From Blautia parvula (GTDB lineage: Bacteria; Bacillota; Clostridia; Lachnospirales; Lachnospiraceae), in assembly GCF_020215665.1 (NCBI RefSeq), contig NZ_CP084061.1, forward strand, positions 3,642,501 to 3,706,500: a stretch of DNA of 64,000 bases, written 5' to 3'. The position numbers and the translations under genes were made by a program. Numbering within the stretch: the first letter of the stretch is position 1; the number at the start of each line of letters is the position of its first letter. The notes under the pieces are model-generated. The model saw only the letters and a list, made by a program, of their open reading frames with translations. It was not told the DNA's origin and ran no database searches. This document shows, one piece after another, positions 1 through 14,656 of this stretch.

Positions 1-275
1 ATGTCCATTGGCGTAAAGGGCCTCTTTGCCTCCCGTAAAAGTCCTTCAAAATATTCTACTGCCTTACGGGATGCATCCTGCCCATACTGTTCTCCCCCCA
101 TCCCGTCACAGACTATGTAGATCTGCTGTTTTGTTAATTCTGAAGTTCCTTTATAGCAGAATTCTCTGCTCTGATCGCTTATTTTCTCTGTATCAATCAG
201 AAAATCATCCTGATTTTCCGACCTGCCTCCCACTCTGGAACTGGCTGATATTTTAACACTGTTAATAGTCTTCAT
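1..275 (-). CDS. PP2C-type Ser/Thr phosphatase, N-terminal fragment (cut by window edge)
   Basis: Reading the minus strand from an ATG at 275 gives 91 codons open to the window edge. A Shine-Dalgarno GGGGAGA stands just upstream. The product has the PP2C opening: an S-R-V-G-G-R-S-E-N-Q-D-D stretch near residue 12 (metal-binding Asp in the ENQD motif), then the I-V-C-D-G-M-G-G motif near residue 60. These are family hallmarks of Mn/Mg-dependent protein phosphatases. It is the last visible gene of the FHA/kinase/phosphatase locus and would be a second PP2C besides the one at 5158-5922. It probably dephosphorylates targets of the two local kinases; that role is inferred from context. The C-terminal two thirds lie outside the window. 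Confidence 0.85.
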   Translation of the reverse strand, partial: MKTINSVKISASSRVGGRSENQDDFLIDTEKISDQSREFCYKGTSELTKQQIYIVCDGMGGEQYGQDASRKAVEYFEGLLREAKRPFTPMD

Positions 276-311
276 AGTCTCCCCATTCTTTATCACACTT
301 GTCATTGCTTC

Positions 312-3300
312 TTATTGCTCCAAAATAGCTTTTAGCTCTTCTTTCCCCAACTGATTCTTAGCCAGGAGCTGCCTGACAAGAAGGTCGATGGTATTCCGGG
401 ACTCTTTGACAATCTCGATGGCCTTTGTAAGCTCCTGTTTCAGCATCTCATTAACTTTCTGCCTTACTTCATCGCCCAGTGTTCCATGCTGCATTTCTTT
501 CTCTGAATACACGGCCAATCCGAATTCCTCATCCATTCCGTAACTGCAGATAATACTCCTGGCAATGCCGGTAGCCTGGCGCAGATCACCTGATGCTCCG
601 GTAGAATTACCGTCTTTTTTCCCGTAATAAACGATTTCTGCCGCTTTTCCTCCCAGTGCCGTGCGAATCATGCCCAGCATCTCCTCATAGGTACGGATAG
701 GCCTTTCACCGGAAGACTTCTGCATATACCCCCCATGTCCGCCTCTGGCTGCAATAGTCAGATAACAGGGCAGTTCCCCGTTCTTCCAGCTCAGAAGTGC
801 ATGGCCGGCTTCGTGCCTGGCTACACGTTCCAGATATTCCCTTCCCCAGTCTTTCTTTTCTCCGTGCATCGTGAGTTCAAAAGCTTCATCCAGAATCCTG
901 TCTGTGACAGCCGTTCGCATTTTATGAGCATTTCTTTTTGCCAGCTCCACCACAGATTCCAGATTCGCCAGACTCATTCCCACAGAACGTTCCGCAATCT
1001 GTTTTAAAATATCTTCTGATATCGCTGCCTGACATTTCCCTGTCTGCAGTTTCAGATACCGGTATCTGGCAGCCTCGTCCGGCAGTCCTACGCGTATCTT
1101 CCTGTCAAATCTGCGGGACAGGGCCTGGTCAATCACACCGATTCCCTCTGCCGAACGGTCTACCTCATAATTTGTGGCTGCCAGTACGAATATGGGGCGC
1201 CGGGGATCTGTCTTTATGCCATCCATTTCTGTAAGCAGGGCATTCAGTGTTGCCTCCTCTGCTCTTCCGGACTCTCCACCGGTGCGCTGCCGCCCAATCG
1301 TGTCTATTTCATCAATAAAAACTACAGAAGGCGCGTATTTTCTGGCTTTTCCAAACAGTTCCCGTATGGCTGCCGGACCGGTACCCGTATACTGTTTAAC
1401 AAAACTGCTGGCCTCCGCTGCCAGAAAAGTCACTCCTGATTCTCCCGCCATAGCTTTTGCCAAAAGTGTCTTTCCTGTACCCGGAGGACCGTACAGCAAT
1501 ACACCTTTTGGGGCAGTCAGCCCTTCTGCCAGGAATCTTCCGGGTTCCTTCAGATACTGTACAAAAAACTTCAGCTCTTCTTTCGCCGCATCTGCCCCAA
1601 TCACATCCTCAAAACGGACTTTGGGTCTTTCCGCATCAGTCATCACATGTTTCTCATCTCCGGCTGACAGTACCTGCTCCAGGGCAAAATCCCGAAGCCG
1701 GATTTTTATGGTTTTTCCGCCTTCCTCAATAATCGGCGCCGTGTCAAAAGTAAGAATTTTAGCCTGTTCCTTCAGCTGCCTGGCCATTCTCTGCATATAT
1801 GTGGCTTTCGCTATTCTGCGTATCTGTTCTGCTGCACCATCCCCGCTTTTCTGTCCTCCGCGTATCACCCCGCACACGCCTTCTGCTGCAAGCCTGCGCT
1901 CCAGCTCTTTATCTATGACAGCTTTCTGCCCGGCTCCTTCCACTTCTCCTTCCATCAAATAAATGGGAAGTTCCGGTATCTGTCTGTGGAGCATCCGGAT
2001 CCATCCCCTTATTTCTGCCAAATCGGAAGCACCCAATGGTACATGGTCAAAACAGCATATTGTTTTGGACATATCCGCATCCCGGCCGCTTCTGCAAAGA
2101 GGCTTCATCTGCAGTACAGCAAACTGTATATTCTGCGCCTCTACGATACCCGCAGCTTCCTCTTCCTCTTTCGCTGTATGGATGCGCAGCTCTTTCAGTT
2201 CCTTTTCCAGTTCCTTTTCCCCTGTGCCCAGAAGCAGCATGTCCGTCTGTCCGGGATTCTTGTAAAGCCGCCGAATCTCTTTCTTATCTTCCGGAATCTC
2301 GGTGACAAATTTCACGGTCTGAAGCGCGGAAAGGGACTTCTCTATATTTTCTTTTGTAAACAATTCAAACACTTTGCGCAGCTCATCCCGCAGAAAGTTT
2401 CCTGCTTTTGCGGACAGGTTCCTGGCATCCGGCTGACCTCCCTGGGCAAAAAGAAGACTTGTAAAAATGCTCTTTTCTCCCACAACTTTTATCTGATATG
2501 TATCTTCAAACTGCTTGGCAGCTTTGACGAAGGATTGTTCGCATATATTTTCCAGGTCTTTTGCCTGCAAATGACGAAACATCAGTACATACCCTGTACT
2601 CATTCTGGAACAGACTGCCTGAGGAAAGTAGGGAATACCGGTTGCCGGATCCACATCTGCGCCCAAAGCATCCAGTATTTTCTTTGGTGATAAATCTGCC
2701 GCATCCGGAGCATCCTCCGCCTCATATATGGTCCTGCCCGCATTCGTGGTAAAGATAATGATAGTGTCTTTGAAGGAGATCTTATTTCCTTCATATAAAT
2801 CTGTCAGACTTCCTGCATCCAGAATTTGAAGAAAAAGATGAATAACTCCCCTGGAAGCCTTTTCCACTTCATCAAAGAGCAAAACACACCTGGGATTTTT
2901 TTCTACGAATTCGGTCAGAATACCTTTTTTCGCATTGTTGTACGTTTTTGCAAATCCTGCCAAATCGCATTCGGAATCCTTGTGTGAATAACCACTCATA
3001 TCCAGACGTAAAAATGGCAGTTCCATTTCTTTTGCCGCTTCCTCTGCAAGGAATGTCTTACCGACCCCCGGAGGACCTGCGAATAGGAAAATACCGCTGG
3101 GTTTTCTCCGCTCCGGGTTGACGGCCTCTGTTATGCCGGCGTTCCAGATTCCGTCTGCAAAAGCATTTACCGCATGTTCCTGCCCATGTATCCGTGCAAG
3201 AAGTGTTTCCCTGAGTCTGCCTACTTTATCCACAAGGTGTTGTATCTGCTCTTTCCTGTGTATTTCCACCTCACTCAGGGGGGTTGTATGGTTTATATAT

Positions 3301-3674
3301 GTTTTCAGCACTCTCACCGAAGTCAGCACTCTCTCCCCACGCCGTTCCGCACCTGCAATACACAGGGCCAGGAAAAGCTTGCAGCTCTCCTCTGCCCTTT
3401 TGTCATCTGCTGTCTCCTGATTTCCGTGATGCCTGATATAGCGAATAATATCCTCAGCCGGTACTTCCTTCAATACACTGTTCAAATCAAAAACTTCCTG
3501 CAGCATCGCATCATCCGGTGCCAAATGCAGATATCCGGCCATAAGCTCTACAGGCATTCCTGCAGCTTTAATAATTTCCAGAAGGATCCGGTCCTCTCCA
3601 CTGAACCCGGCATTTTCTCTTTTATGATTTTCCGCCATTTTGATGGCATAAAGAAAAACTTTTGAATACTTCAT
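312..3674 (-). CDS. Tandem AAA+ protein: ClpA/B-type ATPase fused to FtsH-type zinc metalloprotease
   Basis: This 1120-residue protein carries two different AAA+ modules. The first has a Clp-type Walker A (GPPGVGKT near residue 200) and Walker B (LLFDEVEKA near 265), as in the second ATPase domain of ClpA/ClpB. After a linker of about 250 residues comes an FtsH module: Walker A GPPGTGKT near 730, Walker B FIDEID, the second region of homology, the zinc site HEAGH near 953 and a downstream D-L-R-Q-A-T that fits the third ligand. FtsH normally has N-terminal membrane helices and one AAA domain in about 620-650 residues. Here the helices are missing, so the protein is probably cytosolic. It lies 17 bp after the FHA-kinase gene. 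Energy-dependent proteolysis is well supported; substrates and the role of the Clp-like half are unknown. Confidence 0.85.
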   Translation of the reverse strand: MKYSKVFLYAIKMAENHKRENAGFSGEDRILLEIIKAAGMPVELMAGYLHLAPDDAMLQEVFDLNSVLKEVPAEDIIRYIRHHGNQETADDKRAEESCKLFLALCIAGAERRGERVLTSVRVLKTYINHTTPLSEVEIHRKEQIQHLVDKVGRLRETLLARIHGQEHAVNAFADGIWNAGITEAVNPERRKPSGIFLFAGPPGVGKTFLAEEAAKEMELPFLRLDMSGYSHKDSECDLAGFAKTYNNAKKGILTEFVEKNPRCVLLFDEVEKASRGVIHLFLQILDAGSLTDLYEGNKISFKDTIIIFTTNAGRTIYEAEDAPDAADLSPKKILDALGADVDPATGIPYFPQAVCSRMSTGYVLMFRHLQAKDLENICEQSFVKAAKQFEDTYQIKVVGEKSIFTSLLFAQGGQPDARNLSAKAGNFLRDELRKVFELFTKENIEKSLSALQTVKFVTEIPEDKKEIRRLYKNPGQTDMLLLGTGEKELEKELKELRIHTAKEEEEAAGIVEAQNIQFAVLQMKPLCRSGRDADMSKTICCFDHVPLGASDLAEIRGWIRMLHRQIPELPIYLMEGEVEGAGQKAVIDKELERRLAAEGVCGVIRGGQKSGDGAAEQIRRIAKATYMQRMARQLKEQAKILTFDTAPIIEEGGKTIKIRLRDFALEQVLSAGDEKHVMTDAERPKVRFEDVIGADAAKEELKFFVQYLKEPGRFLAEGLTAPKGVLLYGPPGTGKTLLAKAMAGESGVTFLAAEASSFVKQYTGTGPAAIRELFGKARKYAPSVVFIDEIDTIGRQRTGGESGRAEEATLNALLTEMDGIKTDPRRPIFVLAATNYEVDRSAEGIGVIDQALSRRFDRKIRVGLPDEAARYRYLKLQTGKCQAAISEDILKQIAERSVGMSLANLESVVELAKRNAHKMRTAVTDRILDEAFELTMHGEKKDWGREYLERVARHEAGHALLSWKNGELPCYLTIAARGGHGGYMQKSSGERPIRTYEEMLGMIRTALGGKAAEIVYYGKKDGNSTGASGDLRQATGIARSIICSYGMDEEFGLAVYSEKEMQHGTLGDEVRQKVNEMLKQELTKAIEIVKESRNTIDLLVRQLLAKNQLGKEELKAILEQ

Positions 3675-3691
3675 AATATTCCCCCTTAATT

Positions 3692-5035
3692 TTATTTCAA
3701 AGCCTCCAGAATCTGATTTTTAAATTCTCTGGCTGTTGTATAGGTACTGCTCTCTTTCTCTTCCTCTTTGAGCACTTTATCAATTACCTTTGCCAGTCTG
3801 ACCGGGATTCCGGGGTTTCTGGTCAAAATAGGCTGAACATCATTTTTATAGATATATTCATAAATATCTTTACAGCCGTTTTGGTCGCGCACATACCTTC
3901 CTGTAAGAAGATAATAATATGTAGCTGCTGCTGACCATACATCCACCTCAGGCTTTGCGTCCCGATAGTGATTAAGCTGCTTTCTGGAGCAGAATAAGGC
4001 GGAGCCGCAGTACTGTCCTGACAATGTAGGTAATCCCCCTGCAGTCTGTCCTGCAAGTTCAAAGGCTTTGGCAAGACCAAAGTCAGAAAGTTTAACCGTG
4101 CCGTCCTCTGCCAACAGTATATTCTGAGGTTTAATGTCTCTGTGCACCACACCTCTTACCTGCCTTTTACCTCCCTTTGATTCCATGATAATCTGCGCAT
4201 TATGAGCATAATCCAGGGCATCTAATATCTGGCATATAATTTCCGTTGCAAGACGCAGCCCCAATTTGCCTCCATTGTTTGCACACAGATCCTCCAGGCT
4301 GCCCCCTTTGCAGTATTCCATAAGAATGTGAAAATCCCTGCCGCTGAAAAGCAGCTGATGGGTTGTTACAATGTTTGGATGCTTCAGCTGCATCATAACA
4401 GATGCTTCCCGCATGAACCAGAAGCGTTTCTGGGGATTCGTCTGCGCAGCGGGATGCATGAGCTTTAATGCCATCTGTTTATGGGTTTTTACATCCTCCA
4501 CTAACTGTACACTGGCAAACCCTCCATGCCCCAGCGTTTTCAATATTCTGAGACCCACAACTGCGTTGGCATACTCCCGTTCTGCTTCTTCCTGTTTTTT
4601 AATGGCTTCATTGACTATATCGGAAATCTGCATTTTTCCGTCCGGCTTCTCTTCTTCGATATTCACGATGAACTGTTCCCTGTGCCCTGCAGTTCCCATA
4701 CCTATCACGTCACTGTCCTTAAGCCTGACCTCACGGTAGGAGCCTCTTCTTCCCTCCTCCGCTGACATGCCGTCCTCTCTTTTTCCGATGATCCTGCCGT
4801 TTACATAGGTTCCGTTAAGACTTCCCATATCTCTGACAACGACATATGGAGGGTCAATTTTGAAAAATGTATTAAACCTGGAAATCCTGTCATTACCTGT
4901 TACATTTATTTTATTTACAATGGTTCTGTCTTCTTTTGCCGTTCTTCCGATGATTGCTGTATCTACGCAATGAAATGTCCATGTCTGTCCCTTCAGACTT
5001 CCTTCTATACATTTGATGGTTACCATATCACTCAT
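3692..5035 (-). CDS. FHA domain-Ser/Thr protein kinase fusion
   Basis: 447 residues, soluble, no membrane segment. Residues about 20-115 form an FHA phosphothreonine-binding domain, with I-I-G-R near the start and G-S-L-N-G-T-Y-V-N-G near the end. The usual Ser-Arg-x-His motif reads S-R-F-N, so the His is replaced. Residues about 165-440 form a Hanks-type kinase: glycine loop L-G-H-G-G-F-A-S-V, catalytic Lys in M-A-L-K, H-R-D-I-K-P-Q-N near 297 and D-F-G. The start is supported by GGAGGAGG upstream of the ATG. An FHA domain attached to a kinase usually targets it to phosphorylated partners, plausibly the membrane LRR kinase or FHA protein upstream. It sits between the PP2C and AAA+ genes. Confidence 0.9.
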   Translation of the reverse strand: MSDMVTIKCIEGSLKGQTWTFHCVDTAIIGRTAKEDRTIVNKINVTGNDRISRFNTFFKIDPPYVVVRDMGSLNGTYVNGRIIGKREDGMSAEEGRRGSYREVRLKDSDVIGMGTAGHREQFIVNIEEEKPDGKMQISDIVNEAIKKQEEAEREYANAVVGLRILKTLGHGGFASVQLVEDVKTHKQMALKLMHPAAQTNPQKRFWFMREASVMMQLKHPNIVTTHQLLFSGRDFHILMEYCKGGSLEDLCANNGGKLGLRLATEIICQILDALDYAHNAQIIMESKGGKRQVRGVVHRDIKPQNILLAEDGTVKLSDFGLAKAFELAGQTAGGLPTLSGQYCGSALFCSRKQLNHYRDAKPEVDVWSAAATYYYLLTGRYVRDQNGCKDIYEYIYKNDVQPILTRNPGIPVRLAKVIDKVLKEEEKESSTYTTAREFKNQILEALK

Positions 5036-5157
5036 GATTCTTCCTCCTCCATATCTGTTTGTTATCTTACTGGTAACTGTTCCGTACTCCCGCCTTTGGC
5101 GATGAAATTTTTACCGCTGCTGAATAGTAACTATTATTGTACCATATACCAATTTAC

Positions 5158-5922
5158 TCATATCATTACTTTCAGGCAGATCACGGAAATATTATCTCTT
5201 CCTCCGGCAGAATTTGCTGCCTGAATCAAACCTGTACATATTTTTTCCGGCTTCTTTCTGTTTCTGATTATTTTAAGCATCCGGGAGTCCTTCACAAGCC
5301 CATGAAGGCCGTCACTGCAGAGTAGAATGGTCTCTCCCGGTTTGGTATCCGTAACAGTTACGTCTGCTGTGGCCGGACTCTGCATCCCCACGTATCGTGT
5401 AAGCATGGAAGAGAAATGCTCTCTTTTTATCTCTGTTTCAGACATATCTCCATGCTCCCGGGCAGCCTGTGCAAAATTATGGTCTACTGTAACCTGACGC
5501 ATTTTCGTATCATAGCGGACAATTTTATATCCCCTGCTGTCACCCATGTGAATCCAGATGGCCTTCCCACCCAGAAGCATGACACCTGTAAAAGTGGCAC
5601 CGTACTGGATAGCTCCATGGCAATTCCCCTTTTCATAAATTTTATTGCTGACCTCCTCCAATCCCTGTCTGAGTTCTTCTGCTGCCCGGTTCACATCCTG
5701 GTGTTCTATATAGTTTTTCCGTACCTCTTTTGCCACCACAAGCATTGTCTTAACTGCTAATTCTGCTGTAAGCGTCCCATACAAAACGCCTCCCATTCCA
5801 TCCGCCACCGCAAAAAATTCTGCCGCCCGGGAACAAAGAATCCTGTCCTGGTTTTCTGTTCTTACTTTTCCTATATCTGTTCTTACAGCCGCCAATACTC
5901 CGCATTGTTTTTTCATCTTCAT
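5158..5922 (-). CDS. PP2C-family Ser/Thr protein phosphatase (PrpC/Stp-like)
   Basis: 254 residues, the usual length for bacterial stand-alone PP2C enzymes. All core motifs are visible: R-T-E-N-Q-D with the first metal Asp, V-A-D-G-M-G-G, G-D-S-R-G-Y near the middle, L-L-C-S-D-G-L and the terminal G-R-D-N-I-S-V-I. It should remove phosphate from Ser/Thr residues in a Mn/Mg-dependent way, opposing the adjacent kinases. It lies between a membrane FHA protein and the FHA-kinase, an arrangement like pstP in the actinobacterial cluster. The upstream ribosome site is modest, so a start two codons later cannot be excluded. Confidence 0.9.
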   Translation of the reverse strand: MKMKKQCGVLAAVRTDIGKVRTENQDRILCSRAAEFFAVADGMGGVLYGTLTAELAVKTMLVVAKEVRKNYIEHQDVNRAAEELRQGLEEVSNKIYEKGNCHGAIQYGATFTGVMLLGGKAIWIHMGDSRGYKIVRYDTKMRQVTVDHNFAQAAREHGDMSETEIKREHFSSMLTRYVGMQSPATADVTVTDTKPGETILLCSDGLHGLVKDSRMLKIIRNRKKPEKICTGLIQAANSAGGRDNISVICLKVMI

Positions 5923-5973
5923 AATTCCGCCTGTCCTTTCTTATCACTGACTGTTTCTATGGATTCTTCTGAT

Positions 5974-6540
5974 TCAATCTCTTTTTATTTCAGACTTACC
6001 GCCTTTTACCTGCGTACCACTTCCCCATACTCGTGTGTGGCCTTCATCGTTTCGGGAAAAATCATCCATGATATTTGCCCTGGATATCCTGCAGGCTACA
6101 TTTCCAAGATAAAGTGTCATCCTGTCTTCCAAATCTATCTGATATACTTTCTTATTCTTATAATATACACCATTCCTGGAACCGCAGTCTTTTAGAAAAA
6201 AACCTTTTTCATCACTGGCAATAACCGCATGCTTTTCTGACACATAGGAACTCCTGATTCTCAGGTCACACATCCTCCCCCTTCCTATATAGAACCCTTT
6301 CGTTCCCACATCACCGATTTCCTTTCGCTTTACCACATTTCCCTTCGAATCCAACACTTCTATTTTCCAGAACCCCATAATGTGTGTCTCCATCATTCTG
6401 TCTTTTACTTCCTGAAACTCCTCCCCGAGCTCTCCCATCTCCGGCGGAATTTTTCCCAGCCCACCGCATACCCGGGTGATCACAAAAATAATCACTCCCA
6501 ATATTAAAATAACGGTTATCTGACCTAATAAACTTGACAT
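5974..6540 (-). CDS. Membrane-anchored FHA domain protein
   Basis: 188 residues. One N-terminal membrane helix (residues about 6-25, rich in V/I/L) is followed by a short linker and an FHA domain from about 75 to 165. The FHA hallmarks are intact: Y-I-G-R-G-R, S-E-K-H and G-S-R-N-G. The domain should face the cytoplasm and bind a phosphothreonine peptide, making the protein a docking point at the membrane like FhaB/FipA of the mycobacterial cell-division cluster. Start chosen from AGGAGGTAAGGAGC directly before the ATG. A terminator separates it from the LRR kinase upstream, so it probably has its own promoter; a TATAAT lies at 6581-6586 but with a poor -35. Confidence 0.88.
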   Translation of the reverse strand: MSSLLGQITVILILGVIIFVITRVCGGLGKIPPEMGELGEEFQEVKDRMMETHIMGFWKIEVLDSKGNVVKRKEIGDVGTKGFYIGRGRMCDLRIRSSYVSEKHAVIASDEKGFFLKDCGSRNGVYYKNKKVYQIDLEDRMTLYLGNVACRISRANIMDDFSRNDEGHTRVWGSGTQVKGGKSEIKRD

Positions 6541-6626
6541 GCTCCTTACCTCCTGTGTGGATTATTTTTTAACTATCCTCATTATATCTCTTTTGATTAC
6601 AGGACTTTATTTATAAATAACCACCT

Positions 6627-6655
6627 AAAAAAAGAGGCGCCCCCCGGCAGCCTCT
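6627..6655 (-). terminator. Rho-independent terminator after the LRR kinase
   Basis: On the minus strand a GAGGC/GCCTC-based GC-rich hairpin (6634-6655) is followed by a run of seven T. It lies 17 bp after the kinase stop codon and before the FHA gene, so it divides the signalling locus into two transcription units or attenuates read-through. Confidence 0.75.
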
Positions 6656-6671
6656 TTTCCGTGATTGTTCC

Positions 6672-9437
6672 TTAATTTTTTTTATTTAACTCCCTGATTT
6701 CCTCCATCTTTTCCTTCATTTCCTCTTCGCTCCAAAAGGGAAGCTGCATATAAGAAGCCTCTTTGTGTTTCTCTTCAAATGCTTTGGAGTAATTTGCCTG
6801 CTGCTCCACAGGCACTCCCACAAACCAAAGCCCCTTTGTATAAGAGGATTCCATGATCGCTGAGTAATCCAGATCCTCTGTATAACTGATAATTACTCTG
6901 TCCTGACTGCTATTCACCTTTTGAAGACTGGTGAGGGGAGTATAGTCAGCTATTGGATTGCCCTGAAGGGCAAGCACTTTATACTCGATGCCTGCAGGAA
7001 GCCCGGAAATATCCGTTATCCGGTTCTGATCCAGCAGAAGCCCCTCCACGTCTGTTCCAAGTGCGCTCAAAACCGTAATATCCTGTATCCGATTTCCTCC
7101 CAAATCCATATAAGACAGTTCCTTGCTGTCCTTCACCGCTGTGATATCTTCTATCTGATTTCCCCGGACAGACAGTATCTTCAGATTCCATTTCTTCTCA
7201 AGCCCTGCAAGGGACGAAAGCTGATTGTTATCTGCCCTTATTTCGGACAGCTTCTGACATCCTGCCAAAGGTTCCAAAGTCGTAATCTGATTATCCGAAA
7301 TTCTCAGGGTCATAAGCTCAGTAAAGGAATTATCTAAGGCGGAGATATCCGCAATCCGGTTTTTTTCCAGATTCAAATATTCTAACTTACTGCAGCTTCT
7401 GATCGGGCTGATATCCGTAATCCGGTTCCTGTCAAGTTCCAGGCTCACAAGTCTTGTCATTTCCAAAAGGACGGAAACATCCTGAATCTGGTTTTCCCCT
7501 AAATCCAGCAGCCGCAATTCCCTGCATCCGTTCAATGGTGACATATCCGAGACCTGATTGCCTCTAAGCCGCACTGAGCTGAGGTCCTGACAGAACGTCA
7601 AAGGGGTAATGTCTGTAATTCCGGCCTGGCCTGTTTCTTCTGTCCGGCTTACATTTAATTCTTTTAATTTTCCACATGCCTCCAATGCTGACAGATCATC
7701 TATGCCTGAGTTTTCTCCGCTAAACCTGGTAAGATTCGTACAATATCCTATGAAGGACCAGTCACACCCCTGTATAAATGTATTGTCCAGCTCCAGAGTG
7801 CGAAGATTTCCCATCCCTTTCAAAAATTCCAGGGTACGAATCCCCTTTGTATCGGACAAAACCAATGTATCCAGGCCGGTAAATCCCGCAAGAGAAGCGC
7901 CAACCTCCGATAAATCAGCATAATTTATCCTTAATTTTTCAATCTGAGGATAACTGCCGTCCGCAAATATCTGCCCGTTAAGACTCTGAAAATTTTCCCG
8001 GTCTCCGATTATCTCCAGATATTTCAGATTCTCCAGCTTCTCCAGGGGTTTCAGCGAAGTAAATCCGATACAGTCTCTGATCCGGATCTGCTCCAGATTC
8101 TCCATAGCAGCCATCCCTTGGATTGCCTGATCATCCAGCCTGCAGGATTCAAGATACAGAGATGTCCTTTTCTTGTCTTTTCCCACTTGTTTCAGTATCT
8201 CCGGTGTTACTGTCATATCCCGTATGAGAGATGACATATCTGTATACTTATAAGGATTGGCTCTCCACGCAGTGATAATACTGATCAGTATTATAAATAG
8301 TATAAGCCCTGCTGTTCCCATTAAAAGAAATTTCTTATTTCTAAATATTCCTGTTTTCTCTCTTTTTTCCTTTCTTTTTACTTCGTATACTTTAGTATCC
8401 GCTTCTGAGCTCTCTTCGTTTTTTGCTTCTATGACCTCTGCTTCTGCACTCTTTTCTTTCTCATTCTCCCATCCCTCTCCCCCTACTGTAGCCAGGTCTT
8501 CTGAAAAGTTCTCCGCTCCTCTTTCCCCGGCAGTTCTTTCCTGTTCCCCCAAAGCAGTTTGTATTTTGTCAAGCAGTTCCTCCATGGACTGTATACGGTC
8601 CTCCCTGCGGACTGCCATTCCTTTCATCAGCACCTCTTCCAGTGCGGGAGCAATCTCCACGCCAAGGTCAGAAGGCCTGGAAATCCGGTCCTCGTGCAAG
8701 CGCTGCAGGCTGTATTGGGGGGTAACCCCGGTTATGCATTTATAGATTGTGGCACACATTGCATATACATCGGTCCATGGTCCCTGATCGTGACCACCTC
8801 TGCACTGCTCTTCCGGAGCATAACCCGGTTTATAAATGATACTGAGCGTCCCCTCTGCATTTTCCACATCCCTGGCCGCCCCAAAGTCCAGCAGTTTTAT
8901 CTCATTTCCTTCCAGCACCATAATATTGTCCGGACTGATATCCCTGTGTATCAATCCTTTTTTGTGAATCTTCTCCAAAACCCGCATTACCGGTTTCATG
9001 TAATCAAGAGCCAGAAAAACGGGCAGCCTTCCGTACTTTTCTATATATTTTTCTAAGGTAATACCATCCAGATACTCCATGACAATATAGACTGTCTGAT
9101 TGGCTTCAAAATAATCTCTTACATTTACAATACCCGGATTACCGGCAAGCCTGGCCATGGTTCTGGCTTCCTCCAAAAATCTCTGTTTCTCTTTTTCCGA
9201 AACATAACTCTGCTTTTTATATTCTTTGACTGCTACCGGCATCTTCAGAACCAAATCCTGCGCCAGATATGTAGTCCCAAAACCACCGGAGCCGATCACT
9301 TTCTGAATCTCATATTTTTCATTCACAACGGTTCCCAATGGCAATCTTCCCAGTATAGCTTCATCCAACACTTTTTCCCCCTCACACTGTCTCAACGTGC
9401 AATGTTCTATGGTACATCTAAAACTTTTTTTAATCAT
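6672..9437 (-). CDS. Membrane Ser/Thr kinase with extracellular leucine-rich repeats
   Basis: About 921 residues. A short Cys-containing leader precedes a Hanks-type kinase: glycine loop G-S-G-G-F-G, V-A-V-K, H-R-D-I-S-P-D-N, L-L-D-F-G and the A-P-E motif in the activation segment. A charged low-complexity linker leads to one membrane helix near residues 372-392. The outer half is a long internalin-like LRR array with many L-x-x-L-x-L-x-x-N units (for example the repeated N-x-I-x-D-I-S pattern). This is an inside-out counterpart of plant receptor-like kinases, with the kinase N-terminal and the LRR sensor C-terminal outside. The frame also opens upstream to an ATG at 9494 inside the PBP gene; I prefer 9437 because it avoids that overlap, but the ribosome site is weak at both. 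Ligand unknown; location beside SEDS/PBP genes suggests envelope sensing. Confidence 0.88.
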   Translation of the reverse strand: MIKKSFRCTIEHCTLRQCEGEKVLDEAILGRLPLGTVVNEKYEIQKVIGSGGFGTTYLAQDLVLKMPVAVKEYKKQSYVSEKEKQRFLEEARTMARLAGNPGIVNVRDYFEANQTVYIVMEYLDGITLEKYIEKYGRLPVFLALDYMKPVMRVLEKIHKKGLIHRDISPDNIMVLEGNEIKLLDFGAARDVENAEGTLSIIYKPGYAPEEQCRGGHDQGPWTDVYAMCATIYKCITGVTPQYSLQRLHEDRISRPSDLGVEIAPALEEVLMKGMAVRREDRIQSMEELLDKIQTALGEQERTAGERGAENFSEDLATVGGEGWENEKEKSAEAEVIEAKNEESSEADTKVYEVKRKEKREKTGIFRNKKFLLMGTAGLILFIILISIITAWRANPYKYTDMSSLIRDMTVTPEILKQVGKDKKRTSLYLESCRLDDQAIQGMAAMENLEQIRIRDCIGFTSLKPLEKLENLKYLEIIGDRENFQSLNGQIFADGSYPQIEKLRINYADLSEVGASLAGFTGLDTLVLSDTKGIRTLEFLKGMGNLRTLELDNTFIQGCDWSFIGYCTNLTRFSGENSGIDDLSALEACGKLKELNVSRTEETGQAGITDITPLTFCQDLSSVRLRGNQVSDMSPLNGCRELRLLDLGENQIQDVSVLLEMTRLVSLELDRNRITDISPIRSCSKLEYLNLEKNRIADISALDNSFTELMTLRISDNQITTLEPLAGCQKLSEIRADNNQLSSLAGLEKKWNLKILSVRGNQIEDITAVKDSKELSYMDLGGNRIQDITVLSALGTDVEGLLLDQNRITDISGLPAGIEYKVLALQGNPIADYTPLTSLQKVNSSQDRVIISYTEDLDYSAIMESSYTKGLWFVGVPVEQQANYSKAFEEKHKEASYMQLPFWSEEEMKEKMEEIRELNKKN

Positions 9438-9471
9438 ACTATATTTTTCACGCCTGTTCCATATATTTCTA

Positions 9472-10809
9472 TTATCTGCTATACAATTTATCATACATAT
9501 TCATGACCGCTCCTTTTAATTGGATTCCGTATCCGCTCTCCTCCAGTTTACAGGCAGCCACCACATAATCCTCATTGAATGTGACCAGATAGCACTTGTT
9601 TTTATCACCGGCCACTTCTGCCGTCCCGCTCTTTGCACAAATTCCGTATTCTGTCATTCCGTAATACTGACCTGCTGTTACCTGCATAAGATTTTTTAAT
9701 GTTTCAGCGTTTTCTTTACGAAGGGGAATCGCCAGTTCTTCTTCCTTTCCCTTATACAGTGTCTTTCCGTCCAGAGTAATCTCGTCAACCAGGTAGGGGC
9801 GCAGCATGACGCCTCCGTTTCCAATACTCTGGGCTATCATTGCCAGATGAAGAGGCGTCACCAGAGTTTTTCCCTGACCGTAACCGGTATCTGCGATCAG
9901 GGCCTCACTGTAATCCCCCATATCCAGATGTGATTCCAGTGTAGTAAAATCCAGTTCTATATCCTGCCCGATCAGATACTGAGACGCTTTCCTCTCCAAA
10001 GTGCTTCCCCCAATCCTGAGAGCCATAGTGCCGAAATATACATTTGAGGAATTACCTAAAGCTTCCTGCAATGCAATGGTACCAAAAGCCGCATTTCCAC
10101 TGTTTTTCACCACATGACCTCCAAGGACCGTATTTCCCTTATCTTCTATGATATCTTTTTCAAGCCCTTGCTCTAAAAGGGCAGCAGCGGTAACCATTTT
10201 AAACGTACTCCCCGGTTCTGCTGCATCCTTAAACCCATTTGGGAGGAAAAACCCCTCCGTCTGATTCCACTCCTCCATGTGGTCAGCAATCTGATTCGCA
10301 TTAAATTCTACTGTTTTTGAGGAAGCTAAAGCAAGTATTCTGCCGGTACGGATATCCAGAACTATCATAGAACCTTCCATCCCTTCAATGAGGCTGTATG
10401 CCTTTTCCTGAATCTGATGGTTTAAGGTAAGTGTTATATCTGCTCCCTTTTTATTTTCCCCCTGCATATAAAGATAGCTCTCATATCTTCCCCGCAGCCC
10501 ATATTTGCCATAAACCGGATCATTATACCCAAGAAGCCAGGAGTAAGATTCCGGATAAAACAAAGTACCGCTTTTCCCCGGCTCTGTTCCCTGGGAAAGA
10601 ATAGTTTTGCTGCTATCCCAAATCGCACCTTCTATGGTCTCCTGACGATACATATTTTTTAATGTACTCTTCTTTAGTTCATCTGTGCCGGTGTTGAGCC
10701 CTTTAACTGCAGAGGTTCTTCCCATAAGAAAATAGCAGAATACCACCACCAAGGCCAGGATAACTGCCAGCAATACTTTAGTTCTCTCTAATAACTTTTT
10801 CTTCTCCAT
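9472..10809 (-). CDS. Class B penicillin-binding protein (transpeptidase, FtsI/PbpA type)
   Basis: 445 residues from the ATG at 10809, chosen because GAGGAGAGGG lies 6 bases upstream; an earlier in-frame ATG at 10872 would overlap the previous gene by 95 bases. An N-terminal membrane helix is followed by the transpeptidase domain with all three active-site motifs: S-T-F-K (S-x-x-K) near residue 200, S-S-N (S-x-N), and K-S-G-T (KTG box variant). The pedestal region is short compared with full-size FtsI, resembling actinobacterial PbpA. It should cross-link peptidoglycan outside the membrane, paired with the SEDS polymerase encoded just upstream with a 32-base overlap. Ser/Thr kinases often regulate such pairs; that link is inferred from gene order here. 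Confidence 0.9.
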   Translation of the reverse strand: MEKKKLLERTKVLLAVILALVVVFCYFLMGRTSAVKGLNTGTDELKKSTLKNMYRQETIEGAIWDSSKTILSQGTEPGKSGTLFYPESYSWLLGYNDPVYGKYGLRGRYESYLYMQGENKKGADITLTLNHQIQEKAYSLIEGMEGSMIVLDIRTGRILALASSKTVEFNANQIADHMEEWNQTEGFFLPNGFKDAAEPGSTFKMVTAAALLEQGLEKDIIEDKGNTVLGGHVVKNSGNAAFGTIALQEALGNSSNVYFGTMALRIGGSTLERKASQYLIGQDIELDFTTLESHLDMGDYSEALIADTGYGQGKTLVTPLHLAMIAQSIGNGGVMLRPYLVDEITLDGKTLYKGKEEELAIPLRKENAETLKNLMQVTAGQYYGMTEYGICAKSGTAEVAGDKNKCYLVTFNEDYVVAACKLEESGYGIQLKGAVMNMYDKLYSR

Positions 10810-12157
10810 ATCTTTCCCTCTCCTCTTTTCCATTTGCTTTTCTTCCAAAGTTTCTGTGGTCTGTACTGCCACACCCCAGGTACAAAATCAGCGCTGCCAT
10901 CATAAATGCGGCCATAAGTGCTGTTCCCCCATTACTGACAAATGCAATCGGAACTCCTGTCATCAGGAAGAAACCTGTGGAGCCCAGAATCATGAGCATA
11001 GATTCTGCAAACAAATAATAGACACATCCAACCACAATACCGGTATTTTTCCCTGATTCTGCCCCCAGATAAAGTTTAATACCTTCCACCAACAATGCCA
11101 AAAACAACAAAACCATAAGAATTCCAACTGCCAGCCCCATATGCAGCAATATGGATGTAAAAATGTAATCAGAATCCTCCACAGGTATCTTAACCGGATA
11201 GTCACTGCCAAACCAACCGCCCAGAGCCATGGCTTCTCTGGCTTTCATTCCCTGGTATCCGGTCCCCAGAGGATCATTCTCCGGATGCAGCCATATGGTA
11301 ATTCTGGACTGGATTTTTATGACCATGCTACAGCACTTTTGTAAAAACGCAGAGATATCTGCCCTGCCATTGGCATACCAGAGAATCCCTGCACCAATAC
11401 CTGCTCCTGTAATTCCCACACCTGCAAAAGAAACCAAAAGACCCAATAAAAAACGCCACGATTTTAAAAACAAAATGCAATAAACACCATAAACCAGAAG
11501 CATGAGAAGAAAAGATCCCATCTCGCTGATACCTACGGAAAATAATAAATTGATGCCCAGATATCCTCCCGAGACCAGCAGTTTCATCCAGTCTTTCCAC
11601 TCCATACAACAGAAAATCATTGTATTCACATACACAAACAGTATTTTTATAAATTCTGTTGGCTGGATGGAAAACGCTCCAAATGTAATCCATGCCCGCG
11701 TTCCCTGGGCATCTGTTCCCAAAATCAGCAGTACAAGATAAATCATCACTGTGGCAAGCACAGCAGACACAAGTATTTTTTCAGGTTTCCAGATACTGAG
11801 CCATTTGTAATGGGTAAATATCATAATTCCTGCTGCCGCCACTGATGCAAGAAATATAATCTGTTCTTTTACCGCATAAGATGAAGATTCATTCTGGATG
11901 ATACACTGCATGGCAATTCCCATATACAGCAGTAAAATGCAGAAAACAGGAAATTTGAAACTTGTTTTATGATAAAATGAAAATATAAGGGCAAGAGCTG
12001 TCACTGCCAGCATAGGCAGAAACAACGCCAGATAATGCTCCAGGCTTCCTCCTCTTGCTTTCACAAAAAAAACCGTTACCGTTTCTGCGCCTAACAGGGA
12101 CAGCATTATTCTGCTAAATGCTGGATTTCTTACTGCGGATTCTATTTTTCTTCTCAT
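10778..12157 (-). CDS. SEDS-family peptidoglycan glycosyltransferase (FtsW/RodA/SpoVE)
   Basis: 459 residues from the ATG at 12157, preceded by GGGAGG at a good distance; an in-frame ATG at 12193 lacks such a site. The protein has about ten hydrophobic helices. SEDS signatures are visible: R-A-W-I-x-x-G with the following Q-P-T-E-F-I-K (family: QPSE-x-x-K), S-D-Y-I-F near the catalytic Asp loop, and the C-terminal T-G-V-P-I-A-F-V-S-N-G-G stretch. It should polymerise lipid II into glycan strands and is translationally coupled to the PBP gene. An AT-rich TATAAT sits at 12207-12212, but no clear -35 box accompanies it. It is the first gene of the signalling/cell-wall locus. Whether it serves division, elongation or sporulation cannot be told from sequence. 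Confidence 0.9.
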   Translation of the reverse strand: MRRKIESAVRNPAFSRIMLSLLGAETVTVFFVKARGGSLEHYLALFLPMLAVTALALIFSFYHKTSFKFPVFCILLLYMGIAMQCIIQNESSSYAVKEQIIFLASVAAAGIMIFTHYKWLSIWKPEKILVSAVLATVMIYLVLLILGTDAQGTRAWITFGAFSIQPTEFIKILFVYVNTMIFCCMEWKDWMKLLVSGGYLGINLLFSVGISEMGSFLLMLLVYGVYCILFLKSWRFLLGLLVSFAGVGITGAGIGAGILWYANGRADISAFLQKCCSMVIKIQSRITIWLHPENDPLGTGYQGMKAREAMALGGWFGSDYPVKIPVEDSDYIFTSILLHMGLAVGILMVLLFLALLVEGIKLYLGAESGKNTGIVVGCVYYLFAESMLMILGSTGFFLMTGVPIAFVSNGGTALMAAFMMAALILYLGCGSTDHRNFGRKANGKEERERYGEEKVIREN

Positions 12158-12310
12158 ATTGCAACCTCCCGGCCTCATTGCCTGTGTTTTCATTTCCTTT
12201 ATATTTATTATATATAATTTATTTTGAGGTTCTGTTTTTATTTGACCACTTTACCCGGCGCATGTTTATGCACTGTACTCTGAATAGGTACGGAACAGGG
12301 GGAAGGAAAT

Positions 12311-12395
12311 TTTTACACAACAAAAAAACCCGCAGAACCTAAGTTCTACGGGCATCTTATGCTCGGATACAATATGCCATATGGTACTCTATGTG
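12311..12395 (-). repeat. Copy A of the tuf-terminator repeat (diverged)
   Basis: About 75 bp resemble the tuf terminator region at 14657 onward: the shared opening TTTTACACAACA, a hairpin at the same place, then CATCTTATGCT-GGA-ACAAT-T-CCAT. The hairpin at 12329-12352 followed by seven T on the minus strand is a working-looking terminator for the anti-sigma gene. Unlike copies B and C it carries no tuf coding remnant. Confidence 0.7.
12329..12352 (-). terminator. Rho-independent terminator of the ECF sigma/anti-sigma operon
   Basis: Ten-base stem with one mismatch (CCCGTAGAAC/GTTCTGCGGG on the minus strand), 4-base loop, then a run of seven T. It lies about 50 bp after the anti-sigma stop codon. 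Confidence 0.8.
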
Positions 12396-12403
12396 ATAAA
12401 ATG

Positions 12404-12883
12404 TCAGTAAATTCTTTTAAACATTTTTTTTGCTGTATTCTTTCTGATCATCTTTCTGATAAGCAGTATGAGCAAAAAATAAACTGCACATACTATAATC
12501 CCCGCAACACAACTCCATGACGCCAATACATACCAAAGACTTTTTACTCTTTGAATTTGATAATTGGCTATCTCTCCCCGTTCGAGAACCGTAAGCCCTA
12601 ATACAGCAATTGGGAAACATGCACCCAAAATAAAAGCTATAATTGCCCCCAAAGCCGTCAGCGCTTTTTGATAAAATCTAACTTTTTTTAAAGGATTATT
12701 TTTTAATTCAACATCAGAAGTTTGAACATCTATCTGCATTTTCATATCATCCATCTTTTTTTTACAATCTTTGCATTGGCTTAAATGTCTATCAATATCC
12801 TTTTTCGTTTGTTCCGATAATATATCATCCTGATACAGCGGTAATAGATCCGAAATAATATAACATGGAAGCTCTTTATTCAT
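12404..12883 (-). CDS. Zinc-finger anti-sigma factor
   Basis: 159 residues. The N-terminal 60 residues fit the zf-HC2 anti-sigma zinc-binding domain, with the H-L-S-Q-C-K-D-C motif (H-x3-C-x2-C) near residues 33-40. Two or three hydrophobic helices follow (about 75-100 and 115-140). The gene starts 8 bases inside the end of the ECF sigma gene, with AAGGAGA upstream of its ATG, so the two are translationally coupled. It probably holds the sigma factor at the membrane until an envelope signal releases it. The pair sits in an islet between two copies of the tuf-terminator repeat. Function is inferred from motif and pairing. Confidence 0.85.
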   Translation of the reverse strand: MNKELPCYIISDLLPLYQDDILSEQTKKDIDRHLSQCKDCKKKMDDMKMQIDVQTSDVELKNNPLKKVRFYQKALTALGAIIAFILGACFPIAVLGLTVLERGEIANYQIQRVKSLWYVLASWSCVAGIIVCAVYFLLILLIRKMIRKNTAKKMFKRIY

Positions 12884-13352
12884 CTTTCAAAATCTCCTTT
12901 ACAATTTTTTGTTTTCCCCTAAAGAAAGTGACCCTTGTCCAGTTTTCTGTTTTGCCTATAATCTCTCCGATTTCAGCAAAAGATAAATTGCTGATCAACC
13001 TCAGATACATGACTTCACGTACCGGCTCATTCAAATCATGTATCAACTGTAAAATCTCTTTTTGTTCCCATTGAACATTTATATCTTTTTTATCTTCTAT
13101 TTCCAGGATATCATCCTCTATGGATAAAATCTCCTGATGTTTTCTTACATATTTCAGCCAAACATTTTTAGCGATTCCACACAACCATGTCAATATGGAG
13201 CTATTCCCCTTAAACCGGTCAATACATTGAACAGCTTGAAAAAAAGTCTCCTGCGTAAGCTCTTCTGCAAGATGTTCATTATTTGTCTTACTCAATAAAA
13301 ACAAAAATACTTTTTTTGAATACATCTCGTATATTTCTTCTATCGACTGCAC
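12876..13352 (-). CDS. ECF-type RNA polymerase sigma factor
   Basis: 158 residues, a typical ECF length. Region 2 is recognisable as A-E-E-L-T-Q-E-T-F-F-Q-A and the following F-K-G-N-S-S-I-L-T-W-L; region 4 as E-V-M-Y-L-R-L-I-S-N-L-S-F-A-E-I-G. It starts with GTG at 13352 behind a strong GGAGGGGAGGG site. It directs RNAP to a small regulon controlled by the coupled anti-sigma factor. A minus-strand TGTAAC (13401-13406) lies upstream and resembles some ECF -35 elements, so autoregulation is possible but unproven. Its regulon cannot be read from this window. Confidence 0.9.
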   Translation of the reverse strand: MQSIEEIYEMYSKKVFLFLLSKTNNEHLAEELTQETFFQAVQCIDRFKGNSSILTWLCGIAKNVWLKYVRKHQEILSIEDDILEIEDKKDINVQWEQKEILQLIHDLNEPVREVMYLRLISNLSFAEIGEIIGKTENWTRVTFFRGKQKIVKEILKDE

Positions 13353-13438
13353 GTTTACCCTCCCCTCCTTCTATTCGTTAGTACCAAATTCTCCTATTTT
13401 GTTACAACCTTATATTATATTTTTACACAACAGAAAAA

Positions 13439-13463
13439 CCCCGGAAACCTTACGGTTCCGGGG
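13439..13463 (-). terminator. Terminator hairpin in repeat copy B
   Basis: CCCCGGAA/TTCCGGGG stem, then five A on the plus strand (T on the minus strand). Identical to the tuf terminator. In its present place it would terminate transcripts from the HEPN/nucleotidyltransferase pair. Confidence 0.8.
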
Positions 13464-13517
13464 CATCTTATGCTTGGACACAATGTACCATAGATACGAA
13501 TCTATATTTAGATTATA

Positions 13518-13571
13518 TTACTCGATGATTGCAGCAACATGGCCTGAACCAACAGTACGTCCGCCTTCACA
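13518..13571 (-). pseudogene. tuf: Remnant of a tuf 3' end (last 16 codons and stop)
   Basis: Minus-strand translation gives [16 protein letters not shown]-stop; intact tuf ends [16 protein letters not shown]-stop. Two replacements and the loss of everything upstream show a decayed or displaced fragment. It may be the old chromosomal end of tuf left behind by integration, or the relic of a second tuf gene. Confidence 0.85.
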
Positions 13572-13673
13572 TTTTAATCTGACCCAAAACGCGGACCTTT
13601 AAGGACAGTTTTTATCCTAATTGCCGCTATTACCGCTATTTTTACAAATTATAATGTGCCACCGCAATTTTTT

Positions 13674-13699
13674 TAGAACCATATTAGAACCACGGCTTA
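13674..13699. repeat. 26-bp direct repeat, left copy
   Basis: TAGAACC, four to five variable bases, then AGAACCACG-CTTA. It matches 14574-14599 with about five differences in the same orientation, exactly 900 bp away. The stop codon of the HEPN gene lies inside it. The two copies bracket the HEPN/nucleotidyltransferase pair, so they may be ends or core sites of a small inserted element. Confidence 0.6.
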
Positions 13700-14104
13700 T
13701 ATCACTATACCTCTGTTCTGCTCCAGATAGATCCTTACACTAACCACAATGTCCTCAGCAGAATGTAATTGCTCCGCAGTCTCATCTAATGAAGCAATGT
13801 AGAAATCATCATAATCGCTGGCTTCTCTTTTCCGTTTTAGGCGCCCCAGCTTTCTCCCAATCTCTCTAGGAAAAATATCTGTAGCCACAAAATACTGATT
13901 AAAATATGCAACCGCATCTTTGTGTCTTTTAAAATCAACCTCCCCCAAAGCTAATACTGCCTTTATTGCATAAAATGCAGCATAATAGCCCCGATTAATA
14001 GCATCCTTATAATGTCGGTTTTCCATACACAATTTTGCCGTTTCTAAAGTCTCCAACGCGGTCCGATACCTATATATGCATAAATCTTCCGCTTTGCTAT
14101 CCAT
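13697..14104 (-). CDS. HEPN-domain protein (probable toxin of a HEPN/MNT module)
   Basis: 135 residues, almost all helical. The centre matches HEPN proteins of the HI0074 type: N-R-G-Y-Y-A-A-F-Y-A-I-K-A-V-L followed by a K-R-H-K-D-A-V-A-Y-F-N-Q-Y-F stretch. In known HEPN/MNT pairs the HEPN protein is an RNase or an adenylylated partner, neutralised by the nucleotidyltransferase. The start overlaps the upstream gene by 8 bases, giving tight coupling. The pair lies between direct repeats in an islet at the tuf 3' end. Toxin activity is inferred from the family; a catalytic R-x4-6-H motif is not clear-cut here. Confidence 0.82.
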   Translation of the reverse strand: MDSKAEDLCIYRYRTALETLETAKLCMENRHYKDAINRGYYAAFYAIKAVLALGEVDFKRHKDAVAYFNQYFVATDIFPREIGRKLGRLKRKREASDYDDFYIASLDETAEQLHSAEDIVVSVRIYLEQNRGIVI

Positions 14105-14432
14105 TTATCACTACCCCTTCATCTCTTACATTTCTGTAGAAAGGCAAAGTGTCCACCCAATATTCATACTGTGCTTCATTCTTTATTATCGGAGAAATAT
14201 CTATGCCCGTCTCGATTTCTATTTCAAAGGCTATATCATACACATCATTTTCAATCCGCTTAATTTCCGAATCACTCATTTTAACCAATATCATTAAATC
14301 CACATCGGAAAAATCATGATTATCCCCCCGAGCATAGGAACCATAAAGAATCACCTTCGATAAGCTGCTGCCCAACAGCTTTCTCAACTGCAAAGAAAAC
14401 TTATATACTACATTCCTTACATCATCTGGCAT
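14097..14432 (-). CDS. Minimal nucleotidyltransferase (MNT), probable antitoxin partner of HEPN
   Basis: 111 residues from the ATG at 14432, chosen because AAAGGAGG stands 8 bases before it. The protein has the pol-beta nucleotidyltransferase core: I-L-Y-G-S-Y-A-R-G near residue 27 and F-S-D-V-D-L-M-I-L, giving the G-S-x10-D-x-D catalytic pattern. In characterised pairs the MNT antitoxin adenylylates the HEPN toxin. A promoter with TATAAT at 14455-14460 precedes it. Part of the islet between tuf and the ECF sigma gene. Confidence 0.87.
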   Translation of the reverse strand: MPDDVRNVVYKFSLQLRKLLGSSLSKVILYGSYARGDNHDFSDVDLMILVKMSDSEIKRIENDVYDIAFEIEIETGIDISPIIKNEAQYEYWVDTLPFYRNVRDEGVVING

Positions 14433-14454
14433 ATCACATCCTCCTTTCATTTTT

Positions 14455-14483
14455 ATTATATCCCATCCAATTTCCTTTGTATA
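14455..14483 (-). promoter_or_regulatory. Candidate promoter of the MNT/HEPN pair
   Basis: Minus strand: -10 TATAAT (14455-14460), 17-base spacer, -35 TATACA (14478-14483; four of six consensus bases). It lies just ahead of the MNT ribosome site. Confidence 0.5.
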
Positions 14484-14573
14484 CAAGAATATATGATCAT
14501 CTTACTAATGCCGCTTGTCCAACAATAACAATTTGCCATTAAAACATGCTGAATCCACATCAGCTATCAAAAA

Positions 14574-14599
14574 TAGAACCAAAACAGAACCACGCCTTA
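14574..14599. repeat. 26-bp direct repeat, right copy
   Basis: TAGAACC-AAAAC-AGAACCACG-CCTTA, the partner of 13674-13699. It lies outside the MNT gene on the tuf side, so the two copies frame the module. Confidence 0.6.
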
Positions 14600-14656
14600 C
14601 GTTCTGTCGCCCACACACTGCTCTGCTGCAAACACTGAGTGCCGAATCTTTTATTC

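Follow-up and report, generated by a model that had tools for sequence, protein, structure and literature searches.

Within a 64,000-nucleotide (nt) window of the Blautia parvula genome (positions 3642501 to 3706500 of a 6.25 Mb one-contig chromosome), ten adjoining genes combine a peptidoglycan polymerase and a transpeptidase with proteins of Ser/Thr phospho-signalling. We read them, with a probability of roughly 0.58, as an accessory peptidoglycan synthase, in which a SEDS polymerase would act with a class B penicillin-binding protein (PBP) as cross-linker; a private Ser/Thr phospho-signalling circuit would control this synthase, whose genes are carried on an insert. The ten genes are co-directional on the minus strand, running from position 12193 past the window edge, beyond which the final three have their ends (positions there are given as locus handle and coordinates). 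Their order is SEDS, class B PBP, leucine-rich repeat (LRR) receptor kinase, membrane forkhead-associated (FHA) protein, PP2C, FHA-kinase, ClpA/FtsH-like protease, PP2C, helix-turn-helix (HTH)-like protein, and kinase, at intergenic distances of -95 to +131 nt that include two overlaps. The initial annotation had listed eight genes on one strand, all of which are found (minus strand, 12193..1), but the row extends beyond its list, continuing with the rest of the second PP2C gene, the HTH-like protein and a third kinase (L007:15420-18806). An intrinsic-terminator-like stem of 11 pairs (12328..12353, minus strand) lies upstream of the SEDS gene, between it and an extracytoplasmic function (ECF) sigma/anti-sigma pair, and marks the operon boundary.

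The SEDS-PBP pair has its catalytic residues intact and is predicted to be functional. The first gene of the operon encodes a SEDS (RodA/FtsW-like) glycan polymerase of 471 amino acids (aa) (10778..12193, minus strand; PF01098, 5.7e-26), in which D342, presumably the catalytic Asp, is invariant across all four SEDS proteins aligned. The class B PBP transpeptidase (466 aa; 9472..10872, minus strand; PF00905, 3.9e-39) has one transmembrane (TM)-like segment and keeps the STFK, SSN and KSGT motifs; its GTG start is uncertain, and as called the gene overlaps that of the SEDS protein by 95 nt. The AlphaFold model of this PBP (predicted local distance difference test [pLDDT], 35.5) was too poor for a structure search. 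Of the plasmid records, 17 match the PBP but none spans 80% of the query. Among viral contigs, the PBP alignment drew 600 pattern matches and no relative, with annotated phage records outside the search.

The pair is additional to the housekeeping pairs of the cell, as the initial annotation had proposed. The genome holds five SEDS and nine transpeptidase places, and the other pairs are located elsewhere: of the four remaining SEDS genes, one lies in the dcw cluster, one in the mre cluster, one next to fab genes and one next to ruvB (cluster names read from the neighbourhood), and the housekeeping PBPs lie at the dcw, mre and ruvB loci. These other pairs rule out the window pair as the sole division pair. 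The window SEDS is the weakest of the five against PF01098 (93 bits versus 210 to 312), and in the phylogenies, which had been named as a check, the window proteins are separate from those of the dcw, mre, fab and ruvB loci. One ruvB-type locus of another genome (L158:7052-9832, genome G094) encodes SEDS and class B PBP in a single open reading frame (ORF) of 926 aa.

Close relatives of the pair occur in three other loci of the family. In a search of 20 genus genomes with the window SEDS, two stand out, its own and that of Ca. Blautia merdipullorum (G303; 7e-33), the other 18 reaching at best 5.8e-17; with a three-row SEDS profile, scoring at most four candidates per genome, three of 397 family genomes pass 1e-42 (its own, Lachnospiraceae SIG292 [G175], and G717). 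The window SEDS and the window PBP each form a clade, with support of 100/100, with the same three loci (B. merdipullorum L154/L161, SIG292 L155/L162, and G717 L227/L228). The contig scan for related loci used two peptide patterns, and its 35 loci are a sample and no census. Unless Pfam is named, neighbourhood matches here and below come from blastp searches in which the ten operon proteins served as queries, at 1e-4 to 1e-2.

The three related loci share a gene order: HTH-like, small FHA, SEDS, PBP, an inverted kinase-like gene, PP2C, Ser/Thr kinase (STK), and a vWA-like gene. PP2C_2 is above cut-off in all three, and an STK is present in 3/3. The FHA protein, N-terminally hydrophobic in these loci, passes the Pfam FHA cut-off in two of them, and its SIG292 homologue is 26% identical (7e-13) to the L154 protein; the vWA-like gene after the STK passes a Pfam cut-off in one. 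The window HTH-like protein is linked to the L154 and SIG292 loci by hhalign (probability 98.2, E = 3.2e-14) and to the G717 protein by blastp (9e-15). As a control, four ruvB-type loci of the family and the genome's own ruvB locus gave no FHA, PP2C or STK match in the fetched stretches. The link between phospho-signalling and a SEDS-PBP pair, as first noted in the window, therefore recurs in three family loci that have clade-mates of the window SEDS and PBP, a membrane FHA protein or homologue, a PP2C, an STK and a relative of the HTH-like protein. Co-occurrence across genomes had been suggested as a check, and it is this core that recurs, whereas the exact kinase, protease and phosphatase set is not found elsewhere in the samples examined. 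Where the window operon has its LRR kinase, FHA-kinase and protease, the related loci have the vWA-like gene, a GTPase-like gene, a large unassigned protein and the inverted kinase-like gene.

The content of the related loci also raises the possibility, which we consider rather unlikely, of a conflict (defence-like) island, in which the SEDS-PBP pair and its phospho-signalling would be allied to systems of the DO-GTPase/GAP1 type, with wall synthesis as protective output or repair arm. Kinase plus PP2C plus vWA is a theme of GAP1-N2 neighbourhoods, restricted to actinobacteria in the portion consulted of Kaur et al. 2020 (PMC7159879), the main text of which makes no mention of FtsW; the window operon has the kinase-PP2C pairing in common with these systems, and the related loci resemble the whole theme. 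Besides STK, PP2C and vWA-like genes, the related loci hold one GTPase-like protein (DO-GTPase2, 7e-4, below cut-off, in 1/3) and, in two of the three, a DUF4011/AAA/MTES_1575 helicase-nuclease-like protein of 1602 to 1651 aa (L154:1344-6152 and L155:2863-7818), and the insert that carries the window operon is absent from near relatives. However, none of the ten operon genes gave a match to a vWA, GTPase or GAP1 domain, a GAP1 Pfam search to E 10 of three candidate proteins from the related loci gave no match, and PADLOC returned only generic kinase, PP2C or AAA matches. The AlphaFold model of the GTPase-like L161 protein (pLDDT, 31.2) was too poor for a structure search.

At the level of the class, a simpler arrangement surrounds SEDS proteins of this kind. 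With the window SEDS as query, 54 of 391 class genomes pass 1e-30 (687 bits for its own genome, 138 for the next). A small FHA ORF adjoins SEDS in 25 of the 29 non-own class loci retrieved, and 18 of the 29 have a PBP match in their short flanks; eight loci with wider flanks have FHA in 8/8 and PBP in 7/8, with no kinase or PP2C blastp match in any of the eight stretches. The FHA-kinase query matched two class-locus FHA ORFs through its FHA part. Weak kinase-like matches in 2 of the 29 loci (E = 0.005 and 0.006) were rejected, one being a Peptidase_S58 protein (L203) and the other a 128-aa ORF without Pfam match (L213). The window operon contains all three members of this class trio (small membrane FHA, SEDS and class B PBP); in the trio, FHA is directly upstream of SEDS, whereas in the window it is downstream of the LRR kinase. 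The FHA-SEDS-PBP trio was probably inherited from the class-level trio, with different kinase and phosphatase sets added to it. The description of the operon as independently assembled, given in the initial annotation, is thus doubtful for this core.

The trees with class rows include 16 of the 29 class loci, and the SEDS version was made with four Blautia rows thinned out. In the PBP tree, the window clade nests moderately among the class FHA-linked PBPs (87/95 and 87/90), with one of the 16 rows outside; the approximately unbiased (AU) test gives P = 0.196 for one PBP clade with all 16 class rows and, in a smaller tree without class rows, P = 0.548 for PBP with the ruvB type. The first trees took only loci with a fitting plus-strand ORF (8 of 18 genus SEDS and 10 of 25 family PBP), and later trees were built without the SEDS of L165_Rubro, for SEDS, and without the duplicate row L131, for PBP.

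The kinases of the operon differ from the PASTA kinases familiar in Firmicutes. The LRR receptor-like Ser/Thr kinase (940 aa; 6672..9494, minus strand; PF00069, 6e-40; LRR_4, 5.3e-42) has its kinase in the first third of the protein, with GSGGFG, HRD, DFG and APE motifs; in its predicted topology, the LRRs lie behind a TM-like segment at residues 386 to 415, with the kinase on the opposite side. No PASTA match was found in this protein, in the FHA-kinase fusion (447 aa, without TM-like segment; 3692..5035, minus strand; FHA, 1e-6; Pkinase, 1.6e-42) or in the third kinase (L007:15420-16793, minus strand), which agrees with the proposal that an LRR ectodomain stands in place of PASTA. The Firmicute PrkC-Stp system also pairs a membrane Ser/Thr kinase with a PP2C, and, as the initial annotation expected, this pair sits elsewhere in the genome (L009:6736-9596; PASTA kinase, 3.8e-46). 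The catalytic motifs sought in the operon kinases are all there. In a kinase tree of 18 rows, the genome's own PASTA-bearing PrkC groups with PknA/PknB (96/92), and the LRR kinase and its own paralogue (96/99) lie inside the receptor kinases of the family (100/100), outside PrkC/PknA/PknB; the FHA-kinase and third kinase obtained no placement. With the LRR kinase as query, 8 of 397 family genomes, including its own, pass 1e-75 (at most two candidates scored per genome); outside its own operon, these matches are confined to the kinase and TM region and reach no further than residue 410. Two kinases of another genome of the family (G769; L236 and L238) also bear LRR ectodomains (LRR_4, 2.9e-51 and 9.7e-28), and the operon is therefore not alone in having an LRR receptor kinase.

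The closest functional parallel to the operon had been drawn with the actinobacterial pstP locus (fhaA-fhaB-pstP-rodA-pbpA-pknA-pknB), in which an FHA protein with N-terminal TM, a PP2C, a SEDS, a class B PBP and a membrane kinase are likewise clustered. That the window operon is a direct orthologue of this locus, transferred or vertically kept, is very improbable. The functional classes are the same, and four actinobacterial loci (Cellulomonadaceae, Acidimicrobiia and two from Rubrobacter) have FHA, PP2C, SEDS, PBP and kinase matches; grouping of the PBP with actinobacterial PbpA, though not shown, is not rejected either (AU, P = 0.353), and the FHA-kinase and third kinase are the unplaced ones. 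However, orthology is refuted for the LRR kinase, which is of another lineage and has no PASTA match, and grouping of the SEDS with the actinobacterial RodA clade is rejected (AU, P = 0.0316, in one tree). The PBP also nests among the class FHA-linked PBPs, and the window PP2Cs lack a TM-like segment, unlike PstP, which is transmembrane according to PMC6554272. The window operon further adds an FHA-kinase fusion, a double-AAA protease and an HTH-like protein, and it is an accessory insert whose clade SEDS is present in 2 of 20 genus genomes, whereas the actinobacterial locus is conserved. Because the lineage of the LRR kinase, PP2C topology and conservation all differ, we do not file the operon with the actinobacterial locus, and since the LRR kinase is no relative of PknA/PknB, the word counterpart, used in the initial annotation, holds as analogy and not as orthology. 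Kinase-FHA linkage as such is not new in Firmicutes, since a pknB-fhaA cluster is reported in a subset of them (PMC6554272, in the part consulted). A literature search for such an operon found none described in titles and abstract openings, with subscription journals largely outside its scope.

The remaining signalling proteins are an FHA protein and two phosphatases. The membrane-anchored FHA protein (188 aa; 5974..6540, minus strand; PF00498, 3.2e-14) consists of a TM-like segment at residues 1 to 32 and an FHA domain, and scores 43.4 bits against the FhaB model NF049868, below its cut-off of 125; two of the three FHA places in the genome are within the operon. PP2C phosphatase 1 (254 aa, Stp/PstP-like; 5158..5922, minus strand; PP2C_2, 8.2e-14) scores 179 bits against NF033484, below the cut-off of 230. 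The N-terminal part of PP2C phosphatase 2 lies in the window (3..305, minus strand), and this 101-aa piece has no Pfam match and an NCBIfam Stp1 match of 5.3e-8; the whole gene (L007:18000-18806, 268 aa) matches PP2C_2 at 3.8e-10. The PP2C catalytic motifs searched for are present. In the PP2C tree, PP2C1 goes with the genome's own Stp and the PstPs, and PP2C2 joins the phosphatases from the three related loci, a weak division (88/87) on long branches.

The double AAA+ protease (1120 aa; 312..3674, minus strand) combines a ClpA/B-type AAA domain (AAA_2), an unassigned middle, an FtsH-type AAA domain and Peptidase M41 (2.9e-27), with the motifs GPPGVGKT, GPPGTGKT and HEAGH; residues 1 to 175 and 480 to 680 have no Pfam match. 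FtsH, a membrane protease with the same M41 and AAA domains, has TM segments, whereas the operon protease has no TM-like segment in its 1120 aa. PMC7159879 describes conflict systems in which one component has two FtsH-type AAA domains and the first of these is inactive, but the resemblance is a likeness only, because the first AAA domain of the operon protease is of ClpA/B type with its P-loop intact. In 150 genomes, the matches listed that cover the first AAA domain come only from the operon's own genome (G000) and, in another context, G013; of 1,937 plasmid records with protease matches, none spans 80% of the query. The G013 protein is a 1613-aa ClpA/FtsH-like fusion protease (L062:13127-17968), with the operon not there, and ORFs beside it presumably carry a viroplasmin-like N-terminus.

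The HTH-like protein (377 aa; L007:16831-17964, minus strand) has no Pfam match above cut-off. At 1e-3, matches to it occur in 26 of 299 family genomes including its own, with 11 others at 6.1e-20 or better. Around its relatives at 12 loci from 11 genomes, a kinase match is present in 11 of 12 and a SEDS or PBP match in 0 of 12. An FHA match lies nearby in three loci of this family (L092, L099 and L101), and the neighbours, named by reading, include HSP70/GrpE-like genes (L099) and pilus-like genes (L100).

The operon lies on DNA inserted after tuf. In G305, whose fusA is 99% identical, tuf and a major facilitator superfamily (MFS) gene are adjacent, 332 bp apart, and relative to this genome the insert measures 19,632 bp between aligned flanks (L007:13523-18501 plus window positions 1 to 14653). 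It is absent at this site from G304 and G305, the two closest Blautia relatives examined. G304 carries other DNA there, including a transposase-like ORF (read by eye), and a stretch of 179 nt matches at 84% where the downstream ECF-sigma-like gene begins. The 3' end of tuf and its terminator are copied at 13415-13570 (94% over 157 nt), and the terminator alone is copied at 12311-12387 (80%). These repeats inside the insert suggest that it grew cassette by cassette from the end of tuf; no integrase was noticed among the insert ORFs by reading.

This history bears on the possibility that the operon is a chance stack, in which an FHA-SEDS-PBP cassette and unrelated kinase and protease cassettes came together because DNA is often inserted behind tuf. 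The tuf-end copies do bracket separate cassettes, G304 has other DNA at the site, and the window kinases differ from those of the related loci. Nevertheless, the ten genes are on the same strand, no gap between them exceeds 131 nt and two junctions are overlaps, and the SEDS, PBP, FHA, PP2C, STK and HTH-like classes recur together in three other loci, leaving a chance stack distinctly unlikely.

For an accessory synthase under its own signalling circuit, gene anatomy and the way in which the actinobacterial locus governs wall synthesis (PMC6554272) together point to a possible mechanism. An extracellular ligand or wall state would engage the LRR ectodomain, and the receptor kinase would then phosphorylate threonines on the cytosolic tails of the SEDS or PBP, or those of a partner protein. 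By docking on the phosphothreonine, at the membrane beside the SEDS-PBP pair, the FHA protein could assemble or activate this pair. The FHA-kinase and third kinase may pass the signal on, with the cytosolic double-AAA protease as target for turnover and the HTH protein for transcription, and the two PP2Cs would reset the circuit.

Several observations weigh against an accessory synthase regulated in this way. The ligand, the phosphorylation sites and the activation of the SEDS-PBP pair are all steps that we infer. Identities within the window clade are low (24 to 30% for SEDS and 31 to 38% for PBP), its branches are long, and four loci are known. The deep position of the SEDS clade is compatible with more than one origin (AU, P = 0.061 with class FHA-SEDS and P = 0.166 with the ruvB type). 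The SIG292 FHA homologue has no Pfam FHA match and lacks the GR motif, and the link of the HTH-like protein to B. merdipullorum and SIG292 is at profile level only, the direct search having missed G175. The LRR kinase and the ClpA-FtsH fusion, which the initial annotation named for a neighbourhood search, are not conserved partners: in the stretches fetched around the three related loci they have no counterpart, nor has the FHA-kinase. The STKs of these loci make up a separate group (100/100) that includes none of the three window kinases, and therefore the kinase slot is not orthologous. The LRR kinase, PP2C1, FHA-kinase and protease could be separate systems stacked in one insert.

A bolder version, which we regard as speculative and unlikely, is an immune-like circuit with new peptidoglycan as its output, in which the LRR receptor kinase would detect attack or a foreign ligand on the cell surface and switch on the private SEDS-PBP pair through the FHA dock. 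The operon would then be one member of a wider family of phospho-regulated islands that use SEDS-PBP as effector arm.

An accessory synthase of the kind preferred here would represent another route to Ser/Thr kinase control of a SEDS-PBP synthase, with kinases unlike those of the actinobacterial case. Since it is carried on an optional insert, the operon can probably be deleted without cell death, and kinase/FHA switching of SEDS-PBP pairs would then be testable in a non-essential system. It might also link wall synthesis to islands so far discussed as conflict systems.

Among the surrounding genes, the upstream ECF sigma/anti-sigma pair at 12404-13352 matches Sigma70_r2 (6.5e-14) and zf-HC2 (2.6e-8). 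ECF-sigma-type pairs flank the operon on both sides and on the same strand, the other being at L007:13514-15287 (by reading). The tuf-end copies bracket the ECF sigma/anti-sigma cassette and a nucleotidyltransferase/HEPN-like pair at 13697-14486 (named by reading). At the far end of the window (62913-63998), a reverse-transcriptase-like ORF, of group II intron type by reading, is open at the window end.

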